Assembly (NCBI GenBank): GCA_004376055.2
Contig: CP049016.1
Coordinates: 2,666,001-2,730,000, forward strand
Source: Nitrospirales bacterium LBB_01
Lineage (GTDB): Bacteria > Nitrospirota > Thermodesulfovibrionia > Thermodesulfovibrionales > Magnetobacteriaceae
DNA length: 64,000 nucleotides
Direction: 5' to 3'
The translations under genes were made by a program, and so were the position numbers. Shown piece by piece: positions 48,300 through 53,282 of the stretch. Below the pieces are notes generated by a model, which had not been told where the DNA came from, searched no databases, and was given only the letters and a program-made list of their open reading frames with translations. Each line of letters starts with the position of its first letter. Within the stretch, counting starts at the first letter, position 1.

Positions 48300-49127
48300 T
48301 TACGCCGCCATCGCAAAATCAGAGCTTTTATAAACCTCGGCAGGTGTTTTGCCTCTAAGCGTAGAATGCGGACGCTCATTGTTATAAAAATCAAAATAGC
48401 TCCTTAGCGCTTTAATCAACTCATCAACAGTTTCATAATCTTTTATATAAACCTCCTCATACTTGACACTGCGCCACAGCCGCTCAATCATGATATTATC
48501 CATAGCCCGTCCTCTGCCATCCATACTTATCCGAATCCCATTGCTCTGAAGCACATTGATAAACGCTGCCCCTGTATACTGGCTGCCTTGATCTGTGTTG
48601 AATATCTCAGGACTGCCATAGAGCCTAAGGGCTCGCTCAAGGCTACTTACGCAAAAACCATCATCCATTGTCACTGACACCTCCCATGACAGCACATAGC
48701 GGCTATACCAGTCCATTACTGCTGTCAGATACACAAAGCCATGTCTCATTCGAATATACGTTATATCACTGCACCAGACTTGGTTGATGATAGTAATATC
48801 TAATAATCGCAGTAGATAAGGGTAAACTTTATGTTGCTTATTCCGTACTGTCGTTCTTTTTCTGGGTGCTATAGATACAAGACCCATCAACATCATCAAA
48901 CGCTTTACTCGCTTGCGATTTACTTTATATCCTGCTCGGAAAAGAATGTAAACCATTGTGCGGCTTCCATACCATGGATGCATTGTGTACTGCTCATCTA
49001 TTGCCCTCATCACCTTCAAATTCTCCTCGCTCTCCGGTACTGCCTGACGATAATAACTGGAGCGTGGAAGGCTTAGCAGGTTACACTGCTGACGAATACT
49101 CAATTCCTTATTTGCTGGCTCTATCAT
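48300..49127 (-). CDS. IS3-family transposase OrfB
   Basis: DDE integrase-core transposase of 275 residues. The N-terminal HTH_21-like part (RQQCNLLSLPRSSYYRQ, YGSRTMVYILFRAGYKVNRKRVKRLM) is followed by the rve core: Asp in WCSDITYIRM, Asp in FNTDQGSQYTG and Glu in NIMIERLWRSVKYEEVY, then NNERPHSTLRGKTPAEVY. The catalytic triad is complete. It is probably made as an OrfAB fusion by -1 slippage at CTAAAAAAAAAG (about 49167-49178), where orfA's frame runs into orfB's upstream frame. No frameshift or stop inside, so the element may still be active. Confidence 0.95.
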   Translation of the reverse strand: MIEPANKELSIRQQCNLLSLPRSSYYRQAVPESEENLKVMRAIDEQYTMHPWYGSRTMVYILFRAGYKVNRKRVKRLMMLMGLVSIAPRKRTTVRNKQHKVYPYLLRLLDITIINQVWCSDITYIRMRHGFVYLTAVMDWYSRYVLSWEVSVTMDDGFCVSSLERALRLYGSPEIFNTDQGSQYTGAAFINVLQSNGIRISMDGRGRAMDNIMIERLWRSVKYEEVYIKDYETVDELIKALRSYFDFYNNERPHSTLRGKTPAEVYKSSDFAMAA

Positions 49128-49141
49128 CGCTCGTTTCTCAC

Positions 49142-49435
49142 TTACCGTTGCGCAAGTAACAGGCTCTTTTTTTTTAGCCAGTCCACTTCTACTTGCAACT
49201 TCCCTATTTGACTATATAACCGCTCTCGCTCTGATTCATATGCCGCCTGAGAATTTTCTTGCACTCCATTAAATAACGTTGACGCCCCTTCTACTAAATG
49301 CTTTTTCCATTCATTCACCTGGTTCACATGAATATCAAATTCCTGCGCTATCTCATTGGCTGTCCTCTGACCTTTGAGCGCTTCTATTGCTACTTTTGCT
49401 TTGTACTCTTTGCCAAACTTCCGTCTGTTTTTCAT
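49142..49435 (-). CDS. IS3-family transposase OrfA
   Basis: 97-residue helix-turn-helix protein: RRKFGKEYKAKVAIEALKGQRTANEIAQEFDIHVNQVNEWKKHLVEGA, followed by a leucine-zipper-like helix (YESERERLYSQIGKLQVEVDWLKKKSLLL). It binds the IS ends and forms the N-terminal part of the OrfAB transposase. The run of nine A near its 3' end provides a slip site for the -1 shift into orfB. It starts at 49435, with AGGAGG-like GGGAGGAT just before. Confidence 0.93.
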   Translation of the reverse strand: MKNRRKFGKEYKAKVAIEALKGQRTANEIAQEFDIHVNQVNEWKKHLVEGASTLFNGVQENSQAAYESERERLYSQIGKLQVEVDWLKKKSLLLAQR

Positions 49436-49487: not shown

Positions 49488-51359
49488 TTGGGATCCACTA
49501 TAATCCTTGGGTTTAAGGAGATGAAAGCAATCAAGGACCGCTTTGAGTTCTCTTATGACAATGATGTTGTAATGTTGAGCGATTTAAAAAAGATGTCAGA
49601 CCTCTATGTATTTGACCTGGTAAGTACAGTGCATAAAGTGCAAGCCAGTAAGGTTACATGGGAGGAGGGGATAAAGGCTGTAATGGAAGCACAACAAAAG
49701 TCAAATAGGCTCTGGAATTCTATTAAAGCTAACACGTTGACGGCTGAAGAATTGCAGCTCATAGCAGAGACAGAGCCTTTGGTTACCTCAGTAAACAACG
49801 TGTCTAATCAGTTGATTGATATCATGTCACAGAAAGATAAAACAGTACTTAAAACTTTTAGACACGATAATCTTTATTCTGCAGTAGATCCTCTTATACA
49901 TAAACTTGCGGAACTTAGCGACGTCCAATTGAAACAAAGCAAAGAGCAATTGCAAAGTTCTAAAATATCATACATAAGAAGTAAAAATATACTGATGTTC
50001 GGCGTGCTGTCTGTATTGTTTTTATCTTTTTTTGGTACTGCGTACATAGTCGGCATTATTATTAAAAAAACTAAAGCAATAATAAAGAGAGAACGGGATC
50101 TTCAGGTTGAGGAGCTGCGAAACGCCATTATACTACTGGACACAACAGGTCATATTGCCAGAATTGGCGGTTGGACGCTGAACGTGGATACGATGAAAAT
50201 ATCATGGACAAGGGAGGTTTACGATATTCACGAAATAGATGTTATACAGCCGCTTGATTTCAACACGGCGCTTGAATTTTATCCGCCAGAGGTTCGTCCT
50301 GATTTAATTGCGCAACTGAATGAGTGTTTGACAACCGGTAAGAATATGGATATTGAACTGCCATTTATTACCACCAAAGGCAGCCGGCTTTGGATAAACA
50401 TTCAAGCAAATGCTCAATACAAAAAAGGCAAAATAGTACGCCTGATTGGTTCGTTTCAGGATATAACCAGACACAAATATGTTGAAGACGAATTAAAGAG
50501 GTTAAATAATAATCTTAATGATATGGTAATTGCCGAAACTGAAAAAAGACTGAAACAAGAGCAAATGCTGATACAACAATCTAAGATGGCTTCCATGGGC
50601 GAGATGATTGGATTAATAGCGCACCAATGGAGACAGCCGCTAAATGCTGTTGGGATAACCATCCAGGATTTAGAAGATGCGTACAAATGCGGCGAGGTTA
50701 ATGATAAATATATCGATAATGTAGTTGATACTACAATGAAACAAGTATATTTCATGTCAAAAACGGTAGATGATTTCAGAGATTTCTTTATTCCTTCAAA
50801 GGAGAAGGCATTATTTGATGTAAAGTTAAACATAGAAGAACTGCTGTCAATGTTTGGACATGTCTTTAGTAAGAGTAATATACATGTTTCCTTGCAAGTT
50901 GAAGAAGATACGTTTGCGTTTACTGATGGTTACCCTAACGAGCTTAAACAGGTTATACTCAATATCTTAAATAACTCTAGTGATGCGATTGTTTCAAAAA
51001 ATTGCAGCAAGGTACAAGGTACTATAGAAATTGGTATAGGTAATAATGAAGACAAGTCAGAAGTTTTACTTTCAATAAAAGACAATGGCGGCGGGATTCC
51101 TGAAAATGTAATAGAGAGAATCTTTGAACCTTACTTTACAACTAAAGGAACTGACGGCACAGGTGTAGGGCTTTACATGTCAAAAACAATTATAGAGACA
51201 AATATGGGCGGTAGTTTGACAGTTAGAAATGTGGATGACGGTGCAGAGTTTGTAATTAGGCTCATCACGGCAGAAAGACAGAGTGAACAACAACAGTGTG
51301 TGTCTGCGAAAGTGGATTACAATTTTAGTAAAGAAGAAATCATGTATCTGTCAAGTTAA
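49488..51359 (+). CDS. Sensor histidine kinase, N-terminally truncated by the IS
   Basis: Remainder of a membrane kinase, about 618 residues from the junction. It has a periplasmic four-helix-bundle-like segment (residues 10-165), then a TM (MFGVLSVLFLSFFGTAYIVGIII), a PAS/PAC domain (ISWTREVYDIHEID..., RLIGSFQDITRHK), a coiled coil, the phospho-acceptor His in GLIAHQWRQPLN, and the HATPase with PNELKQVILNILNNSSDAI, IKDNGGGIPENV, FEPYFTTKGTDGTGVGLYMSK. The first TM lies upstream of the IS. The open frame starts at a TTG within the IS end, while ATG 49521 has GGAG directly in front of it; expression may depend on the IS. No response-regulator gene is adjacent. Confidence 0.8.
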   Translation: MGSTIILGFKEMKAIKDRFEFSYDNDVVMLSDLKKMSDLYVFDLVSTVHKVQASKVTWEEGIKAVMEAQQKSNRLWNSIKANTLTAEELQLIAETEPLVTSVNNVSNQLIDIMSQKDKTVLKTFRHDNLYSAVDPLIHKLAELSDVQLKQSKEQLQSSKISYIRSKNILMFGVLSVLFLSFFGTAYIVGIIIKKTKAIIKRERDLQVEELRNAIILLDTTGHIARIGGWTLNVDTMKISWTREVYDIHEIDVIQPLDFNTALEFYPPEVRPDLIAQLNECLTTGKNMDIELPFITTKGSRLWINIQANAQYKKGKIVRLIGSFQDITRHKYVEDELKRLNNNLNDMVIAETEKRLKQEQMLIQQSKMASMGEMIGLIAHQWRQPLNAVGITIQDLEDAYKCGEVNDKYIDNVVDTTMKQVYFMSKTVDDFRDFFIPSKEKALFDVKLNIEELLSMFGHVFSKSNIHVSLQVEEDTFAFTDGYPNELKQVILNILNNSSDAIVSKNCSKVQGTIEIGIGNNEDKSEVLLSIKDNGGGIPENVIERIFEPYFTTKGTDGTGVGLYMSKTIIETNMGGSLTVRNVDDGAEFVIRLITAERQSEQQQCVSAKVDYNFSKEEIMYLSS

Positions 51360-51439: not shown

Positions 51440-52642
51440 ATGATAAGTGAAACTAAGCACAGATTTTCGGCTCTGTATGTGAAAGAGTTCAGGCATTATT
51501 TCTTAGCGCAGGCAATATCGCTTTCCGGGACGTGGATACATCAGACGGCGGCCGGATGGCTTATGTACTCGCTGACAAAATCAGCGCTTTATCTTGGGCT
51601 ACTTGGCATGTCGCTTTCCCTGCCGATTCTTTTATTTACCCTGATAGGGGGAGTGCTGGCCGACAGGTTTAAAAAAAGAGAGCTTCTTATACTGACTCAG
51701 GCTCTGTCAATTATCCCTGCTGCGATTCTTGCACTGCTGCTGGCTTTTAATATGATAAAAGTATGGGAAATCATAGCGGTCTCGTTTTTTCTTGGCACAA
51801 TTAACTCCATAGACACTCCTGTAAGACAGTCATTTCTGATTGAAATAGCAGGGAAAAACAATATTTTAAATGCTGTTGCGCTGACCTCTACGATTTTTCA
51901 TGCGGCACGGGCTGTGGGCCCAATAATTGCCGGATTTGCAATAAACCACTTTGGATTTTCAATATGTTTTACTTTAAATGCCGTTACCTTTCTGCCTGTT
52001 GTATATGTCCTCATACAAATGAAAATCACTTGTGACAACAAAAAATCCGCTCCACAAAGCCTGTTTAAAGAGTTTTCAGAGGGTTTGACGTATGTTATAA
52101 AGTCCCGGCGCATTGCCTTTATCATGGTAACAATAACGGTTTTTAGCCTTTTTTGCATACCGTATAGCCATTTTTTACCGCTTTTCATAGACAAGGTGTT
52201 TCACTCAAATGTTGTGGGGCTGGGTTACCTGATGTCGGCAACAGGCGTAGGCTCACTGTTTGCGGGCTTTATTATTGCGTACAACCGAGATATTAAAAAC
52301 AAAAGAAAGTTCATGTCCATAACTGGTTTTCTGCTGCCGTTTTCGTTGTTTACATTTTGTTTTGTAAAAAACTTTACGGCTGCAATGTTTCTTTTAGCAC
52401 TGACAGGCTTTAATTTAGTCTCATTTCTGGCTACAGCCAACAGTTACATTCAGCTTAAGGTATCTGACTCAATCAGGGGCAGGGTCATGAGCGTTTACAC
52501 CCTGATGTTTCTTGGCATGGCTCCCCTTGGCGCAGCCCTGATTGGCTCTTTGGCACAACTCTGGAGTATAGAGAAAACCATTGCCGTCACAACAAGTATA
52601 AGTCTCTCCGGTTTTCTGATTTTTAGAAGAAAATGGGCTTAA
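51440..52642 (+). CDS. MFS transporter (EntS-like)
   Basis: Twelve-TM major facilitator of 400 residues in the MFS_3/enterobactin-exporter-like group. Landmarks are the TM1-2 loop FLAQAISLSGTWIHQTAAGWLMYSLTKSALYLGLLG, GGVLADRFKKRELL (the MFS signature loop between TM2 and TM3), DTPVRQSFLIEIAGKNNILNAVALTS and ANSYIQLKVSDSIRGRVMSVYTL in the second half. It may export a drug, siderophore or small molecule; the substrate is not visible. The stop overlaps the converging rpsT stop (TTAA). Start at ATG 51440. Confidence 0.88.
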   Translation: MISETKHRFSALYVKEFRHYFLAQAISLSGTWIHQTAAGWLMYSLTKSALYLGLLGMSLSLPILLFTLIGGVLADRFKKRELLILTQALSIIPAAILALLLAFNMIKVWEIIAVSFFLGTINSIDTPVRQSFLIEIAGKNNILNAVALTSTIFHAARAVGPIIAGFAINHFGFSICFTLNAVTFLPVVYVLIQMKITCDNKKSAPQSLFKEFSEGLTYVIKSRRIAFIMVTITVFSLFCIPYSHFLPLFIDKVFHSNVVGLGYLMSATGVGSLFAGFIIAYNRDIKNKRKFMSITGFLLPFSLFTFCFVKNFTAAMFLLALTGFNLVSFLATANSYIQLKVSDSIRGRVMSVYTLMFLGMAPLGAALIGSLAQLWSIEKTIAVTTSISLSGFLIFRRKWA

Positions 52643-52920
52643 GCCAGTTTAGCAACCTTTGAGGCCAACCGCGAAATCTTACGCGATGACGTATTTCTGT
52701 GAATAATCCCCTTAGAGGCTGCTTTGAAAAAAGCGCTCTCTGCCTCAATCAACTGCTTTTGAGCTTCATCTTTTTTGTTTGAAGCTATAGATTCCTGCAC
52801 CTTCCTGGCAAGGGTACGAAGTCTGCTTACTGTCATCTTGTTAATAAGCTGACGCTTCAGCGCCTGCCTTGCTCTCTTTTTTACCGACTTACTTTTCTTG
52901 GGTCTTGATCTTGCTGCCAT
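52639..52920 (-). CDS. rpsT: 30S ribosomal protein S20
   Basis: Primary 16S-rRNA-binding ribosomal protein, 93 residues. Basic N-terminal helix ARSRPKKSKSVKKRARQALKR, then SRLRTLARKVQESI, and the conserved C-terminal block AFFKAASKGIIHRNTSSRKISRLASKVAKL. Length and sequence are standard. It reads toward the MFS gene and overlaps its stop codon. Upstream on the same strand lies the small UGA-containing gene at 52970-53140. Confidence 0.97.
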   Translation of the reverse strand: MAARSRPKKSKSVKKRARQALKRQLINKMTVSRLRTLARKVQESIASNKKDEAQKQLIEAESAFFKAASKGIIHRNTSSRKISRLASKVAKLA

Positions 52921-52969: not shown

Positions 52970-53140
52970 CTACACGGTGTCGCACGGACGATTAGAAAGA
53001 TAATTCCACGTGTTGGCGTCTATCTCGTCTATATACTCAGACAGAAGAAAACGTGCGCCGCATTCCATGCAGCGTAGCTCCACCGATCGTCACCTAACTA
53101 TCAGGTCTAATGTATTGCCGCAATCACGACACTTCATCAT
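52970..53140 (-). CDS. Dual-CxxC small protein with in-frame UGA: candidate selenoprotein
   Basis: Read from ATG 53140: MMKCRDCGNTLDLIVR, then UGA at 53092-53090, then RSVELRCMECGARFLLSEYIDEIDANTW...RPCDTV and a TAG stop; 56 residues if the UGA is read as Sec17. CxxC before and after the UGA makes a zinc-ribbon or redox motif with Sec between. Coding logic (CMECG, acidic YIDEIDANTW helix) persists beyond the UGA. A ribosome-site-like AGGA precedes the ATG. A hairpin fitting a bacterial SECIS follows the UGA. Small dual-CxxC (seleno)proteins are known in Geobacter-like bacteria (from memory). The alternative is a recent CGA-to-TGA nonsense mutation. Confidence 0.6.
53056..53074 (-). promoter_or_regulatory. 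SECIS-like hairpin after the in-frame UGA
   Basis: Transcript CGCTGCAT-GGA-ATGCGGCG: an 8-bp stem (one G-U pair) with G at the start of the loop, beginning 15 bases after the UGA so that the apical loop is about 24 bases downstream. Bacterial SECIS elements have this distance (about 16-37 bases) and a G within the first loop positions. The hairpin also encodes the second CxxC, so it is constrained by protein too. Confidence 0.5.
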
Positions 53141-53282
53141 ACCCTTTTTCCTTTCCACCGTTAAAGACCTCTTTTTATCAAACTCTCATACCTTAATCTA
53201 TTATATATCAACACAGTGTATATTTAAAATGCAAGGGGAGTACTTATTTTAATAATTGTAAGGATATTTTGCATCCCGCCGT

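Follow-up and report, generated by a model that had tools for sequence, protein, structure and literature searches.

A short gene interrupted by an in-frame UGA lies on the minus strand of the window (the whole 64,000-nt stretch of Nitrospirales bacterium LBB_01 DNA that was analysed), where it precedes an ORF for ribosomal protein S20. The features at this locus are as follows.

52639..52920, minus strand: ORF for ribosomal protein S20 (rpsT, named by eye), 49 nt downstream of the small gene
52970..53140, minus strand: coding sequence of the predicted dual-CxxC small selenoprotein, 56 codons with UGA read as selenocysteine (Sec), stop codon TAG at 52972-52970
53056..53074, minus strand: predicted apical hairpin of the bSECIS, CGCTGCATGGAATGCGGCG, 8 bp with a GGA loop, sharing bases with the codons for the second CxxC
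53060..53071, minus strand: second CxxC motif (C-M-E-C), invariant in the alignment of relatives
53090..53092, minus strand: in-frame UGA, codon 17, predicted to be read as Sec (of 51 genomes, 46 have UGA here and 5 have Cys)
53120..53131, minus strand: first CxxC motif (C-R-D-C), conserved in the alignment of relatives
53200..53228, minus strand: candidate sigma-70-type promoter TTTAAA-17-TATAAT upstream of the small gene, a pattern match only

Read from 53140 to 52970 with TGA translated as U, the frame encodes MMKCRDCGNTLDLIVRURSVELRCMECGARFLLSEYIDEIDANTWNYLSNRPCDTV and ends at TAG. The preliminary description of a 56-codon frame with a UGA between two CxxC pairs gave the correct coordinates and left the strand unstated; the gene is on the minus strand, and a plus-strand reading of 52970-53140 was discarded as a nonsense frame. 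As that description also held, conventional translation ends at the UGA after 16 codons. The start codon may be the ATG at 53140 or the adjacent ATG at 53137, with an in-frame upstream GTG as a further possibility. In a 55-residue numbering the two CxxC pairs (C3/C6 and C23/C26) flank the Sec/Cys site (U16), and these positions were conserved in an alignment of 50 sequences.

The small gene and rpsT are possibly co-transcribed. The 13 genomes in which the two genes adjoin belong to a single taxonomic family; elsewhere the neighbours vary (a YacP/NYN protein, YicC, Gmk, ArgG and others, named by eye) with no constant partner. Because the neighbours differ outside its own taxonomic family, the context of the gene gives no partner, and a conserved neighbourhood was rejected as a clue to function. 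Elsewhere in the window, ORFs resembling an IS3-type transposase pair (by eye) were noted at 48300-49435 on the minus strand; these adjoin a histidine-kinase ORF at 49488-51359 on the plus strand (also by eye; listed start TTG), which may have been cut by the IS3-type insertion.

With the UGA read through, the protein matched the NCBIfam model NF041197.2 (CxxC_Se_CxxC, 'dual CXXC motif small (seleno)protein') with 59.6 bits against a cut-off of 40, and the part following the UGA scored 42.7 bits on its own. By way of two reviews (PMC13188914 and PMC9312934) this family was matched to the 'Dual CXXC motif small protein (hypothetical protein OS_HP3)', which is listed with the motif RxU (PMC13188914) and credited to the 2007 study of an Olavius algarvensis symbiont by Zhang and Gladyshev (PMC9312934, PMC13188914). 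The OS_HP3 protein of Desulfosarcina widdelii is reported to be the only known selenoprotein missed by deep-Sep in its test genomes (PMC12013277). The window protein shares with NF041197/OS_HP3 its size, both CxxC motifs, a Sec placed between them and the C-terminal EYIDEID..TW..R. It departs from the RxU motif of the review in having I-V-R-U before and at the Sec, which is sequence drift only; it is a Nitrospirota member adjoining rpsT and has no feature that places it outside the family. The profile score and the OS_HP3 entries of the reviews therefore make it a member of a known family. It had been put forward as a candidate new small selenoprotein, of which the selenoprotein with its bSECIS has stood up well and the novelty has not: the family is already named and modelled, so the gene is not counted as new. 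What is added here is the wide spread of the family in one Nitrospirota order, evidence for the SECIS at the level of codons, and a low-confidence structure model.

To follow the UGA site, the NF041197 profile was run against the window's genome and those of 59 relatives, and the family was present in 51 of these 60 genomes, the window's among them. All 51 were decoded at the residue site: 46 have UGA there, 5 have a Cys codon (four of these from one genus), and nothing else occurred; neither Arg nor Gly, the residues whose occurrence at this position had been set against the proposal, was seen in any of them. In a sample of the phylum the family occurred in 152 of 396 genomes, 139 of them over the curated cut-off. 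Among the matches listed for that sample nearly all had exactly one internal stop, always TGA, and two more members without an internal stop also carried Cys at the site. The family was kept in most of the searched genomes of one Nitrospirota order. A further scan of a genome collection with a five-sequence alignment returned 18 loci, of which 17 were true relatives (with Nitrospirae, Nitrospiraceae, Thermodesulfovibrionales and Nitrospira among their titles) and one, from Halieaceae (L128), was a chance match. The named relatives were Nitrospirae/Nitrospirota metagenome-assembled genomes, including Thermodesulfovibrionales and a Nitrospira sp. bin, and by these the window's genome most probably falls within the same part of Nitrospirota.

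Codons past the UGA showed dN of 0.01-0.09 against dS of 0.33-1.2 in comparisons covering the window's genus and two other genera, with dN/dS of about 0.04-0.1 within the window's genus. Judged by these rates, purifying selection is acting on the codons past the UGA, which argues that the stretch beyond it is translated and useful.

The hairpin CGCUGCAU-GGA-AUGCGGCG has 8 bp and a 3-nt loop with G first (arms CGCTGCAT and ATGCGGCG around the GGA, 15 bases past the TGA). As it begins 15 nt after the UGA and its stem is 8 bp, the loop begins 23 nt after the UGA. A published bSECIS model allows a loop of 3-9 nt with G in its first two positions, 16-37 nt from UGA to loop, and a stem of 4-16 bp with a minimum free energy of -7.5 kcal/mol or lower (PMC13188914); the GGA loop of 3 nt, the distance of 23 nt, the 8 bp and the energy of -10.0 kcal/mol (stem alone) all lie within these limits, which bears out the earlier proposal of an 8-bp hairpin with bacterial SECIS geometry and a G-starting loop 15 bases after the UGA. 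The folding energy of the region was ordinary (z = -0.17; 84 of 200 shuffles folded as well), and the significance of the hairpin comes from its conservation and not from its folding energy. At least five of six stem pairs, together with a G at loop position one or two, were kept in 27 of 29 UGA-bearing genera. Codon tests were made with one UGA-bearing sequence for each of the 29 genera, so that shared ancestry was reduced and not removed. The Arg before the second CxxC was encoded by CGC in 18 of 18 genera against a background of 0.133 (p 2e-16, one per genus), and Thr at the loop codon by ACG, which supplies the loop G, in 8 of 9 against a background of 0.21 (p 3e-5, one per genus). In the second CxxC 56 of 58 Cys codons were TGC, whereas the first CxxC of these genes had TGC in 38 of 57 (p 2e-5). 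The constraint on third bases in the hairpin thus greatly exceeds what codon usage would give. Four of the five Cys forms, all from a single genus, no longer have the pair at positions 22-34. A SECIS-like hairpin was also largely kept in members with a Cys codon (TGC/TGT) in genomes G057 (L087) and G257 (L108, L121).

The preliminary description had made its proposal depend on selA, selB, selC and selD, a check set beforehand, and all four are present in the genome (a single contig of 3,273,455 bases, 99.87% complete). Matches were obtained to selA (591.8 bits), selB (351.1 bits, the sole match over the cut-off) and selD (317 bits, with one in-frame TGA), and to tRNA-Sec (70.7 bits), which ARAGORN also called as tRNA-Sec with anticodon TCA (UCA); the second-ranked Rfam match over the cut-off was an ordinary tRNA-Ser. 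The SelD gene (L048, G000:C1:3237280-3238206) appears itself to be a selenoprotein gene, with an in-frame UGA followed by a hairpin. In one relative with the Cys form (G010, 92% complete) no selA was found, and no selB or tRNA-Sec over the cut-off; the Cys-form genomes G004 and G012 still carry Sec genes. Genome G048 (L093) has the UGA form together with tRNA-Sec(UCA), yet its draft, rated 99% complete, yielded neither selA nor a selB match above the cut-off.

Given the Sec machinery of the genome, the exclusive use of UGA or Cys at the site, the selection past the UGA and the constraint on the hairpin codons, recoding is well supported, and these sequence grounds speak strongly for a selenoprotein gene with a bSECIS. 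In the mechanism that we propose, SelB with Sec-tRNA-Sec(UCA) would bind the hairpin starting 15 nt past codon 17, and Sec would be inserted at the UGA to yield a full-length protein rather than a 16-residue stub. The product would be a selenoprotein of 55-56 residues of the NF041197/OS_HP3 family. We infer that its two CxxC pairs hold one zinc, as a pair of zinc-ribbon-like knuckles, and that the beta-hairpin between them carries the Sec at its tip, where it would be an exposed redox or nucleophilic residue and not a zinc ligand. This explanation as a whole, that is an OS_HP3-family selenoprotein made through SelB and the hairpin together with the suggested zinc-ribbon part and its Sec at the tip, is in our judgement highly probable.

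Two other accounts of the UGA were weighed against it. The codon could be a genuine stop, a sequencing error or the mark of a pseudogene, leaving a 16-codon leader or a decayed gene, with the hairpin serving as a terminator or attenuator before rpsT. A scan for terminator patterns did flag the same hairpin, with the tail CACGTTTTCT, and rpsT lies 49 nt past the gene; however, a T-rich tail was not general among the sequences of relatives and adjacency to rpsT was limited to one taxonomic family, while strong purifying selection on the codons beyond the UGA, and UGA at the same codon in 46 genomes with Cys in 5, are not what a stop or a decayed gene would lead one to expect. We regard this account as very unlikely. 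Alternatively, a second SelB (selB*) could deliver a tRNA-Sec-like tRNA-Cys (selC*) that reads the UGA as Cys; the selC*/selB* system has been described from Desulfobacterales and other anaerobes (Mukai et al. 2017; PMC7609411). Cys is the sole replacement seen at the site, and several relatives have a second tRNA-Sec-like gene with a GCA anticodon, one of them just upstream of a second selB. Against this, those selC*-like tRNAs of relatives read Cys codons and not UGA, and in the window's genome a single SelB scored over the cut-off and the single tRNA-Sec has a UCA anticodon; the pair of a second tRNA-Sec-like tRNA-Cys and a second SelB over the cut-off was not found there. There is accordingly very little to commend a Cys reading of this UGA, and Sec insertion directed by SelB and the hairpin remains much the better account.

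The structural part of the preferred explanation was approached with AlphaFold2 in two runs without zinc, headed by the window protein (Sec as Cys) and by a natural Cys homologue, respectively. Both models had a strand at 9-14, residue 16 in a turn, a strand at 19-23, a third short strand and two helices, with moderate to low confidence (mean pLDDT 71 and 76, pTM 0.46 and 0.49). In a fold search Rpb9-type ribbons were matched weakly (Z up to 4.0 over 40 residues, rmsd 3.0); the best Foldseek match was Thermus ZifS (8yoz) at E 0.15, with no fold match at E < 0.1. Pfam zinc-ribbon matches were weak, all below the gathering score, and a sequence search of solved structures gave no convincing relative. 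As modelled, the protein would resemble zinc ribbons such as the Rpb9 N-terminal ribbon, the eIF5 zinc ribbon and ZifS in having two CxxC knuckles joined by a beta-hairpin, although it has no significant sequence match to these proteins (Rpb9, eIF5, ZifS). The models are consistent with a zinc-ribbon-like protein whose zinc would be held by the four CxxC cysteines, with the Sec placed at the hairpin tip. A rival that contests only this structural part accepts the inserted Sec and takes the product to be a redox protein of the dithiol/selenol type, with Sec partnered by a cysteine of a CxxC pair and without structural zinc. Bacterial selenoproteins are mostly redox proteins (PMC9312934), and Sec and Cys interchange at the site, as this rival would have it; but the models put residue 16 at the hairpin tip between the CxxC pairs and the weak profile matches go to zinc ribbons, and we consider a redox protein of this kind rather unlikely, if by no means far-fetched. 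More speculative, and in our view doubtful, is the notion of a zinc ribbon whose reactive Sec tip points away from the metal on a nucleic-acid- or ribosome-associated scaffold, in place of a classical redox motif.

The gene is thus a real one and belongs to a little-studied selenoprotein family that is widespread in one Nitrospirota order. This wide spread makes the OS_HP3 family a good target for studying the role of Sec outside the usual UxxC/CxxU motifs.

The second GCA tRNA genes of the relatives look like a selC* tRNA-Cys/selB* system by analogy with the published one. In G057 such a tRNA-Sec-like gene (C20:15540-15631; L102, L149) lies just upstream of a second selB (C20:13633-15489), and more were noted in G200:C15 (L150), G293:C35 (L152), G295:C62 and C142 (L147, L156), G303:C101 (L151) and G363:C13 (L154). 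Of the Cys-form genomes G057 and G257, the former carries this GCA selC*-selB* pair and the latter showed only canonical tRNA-Sec.
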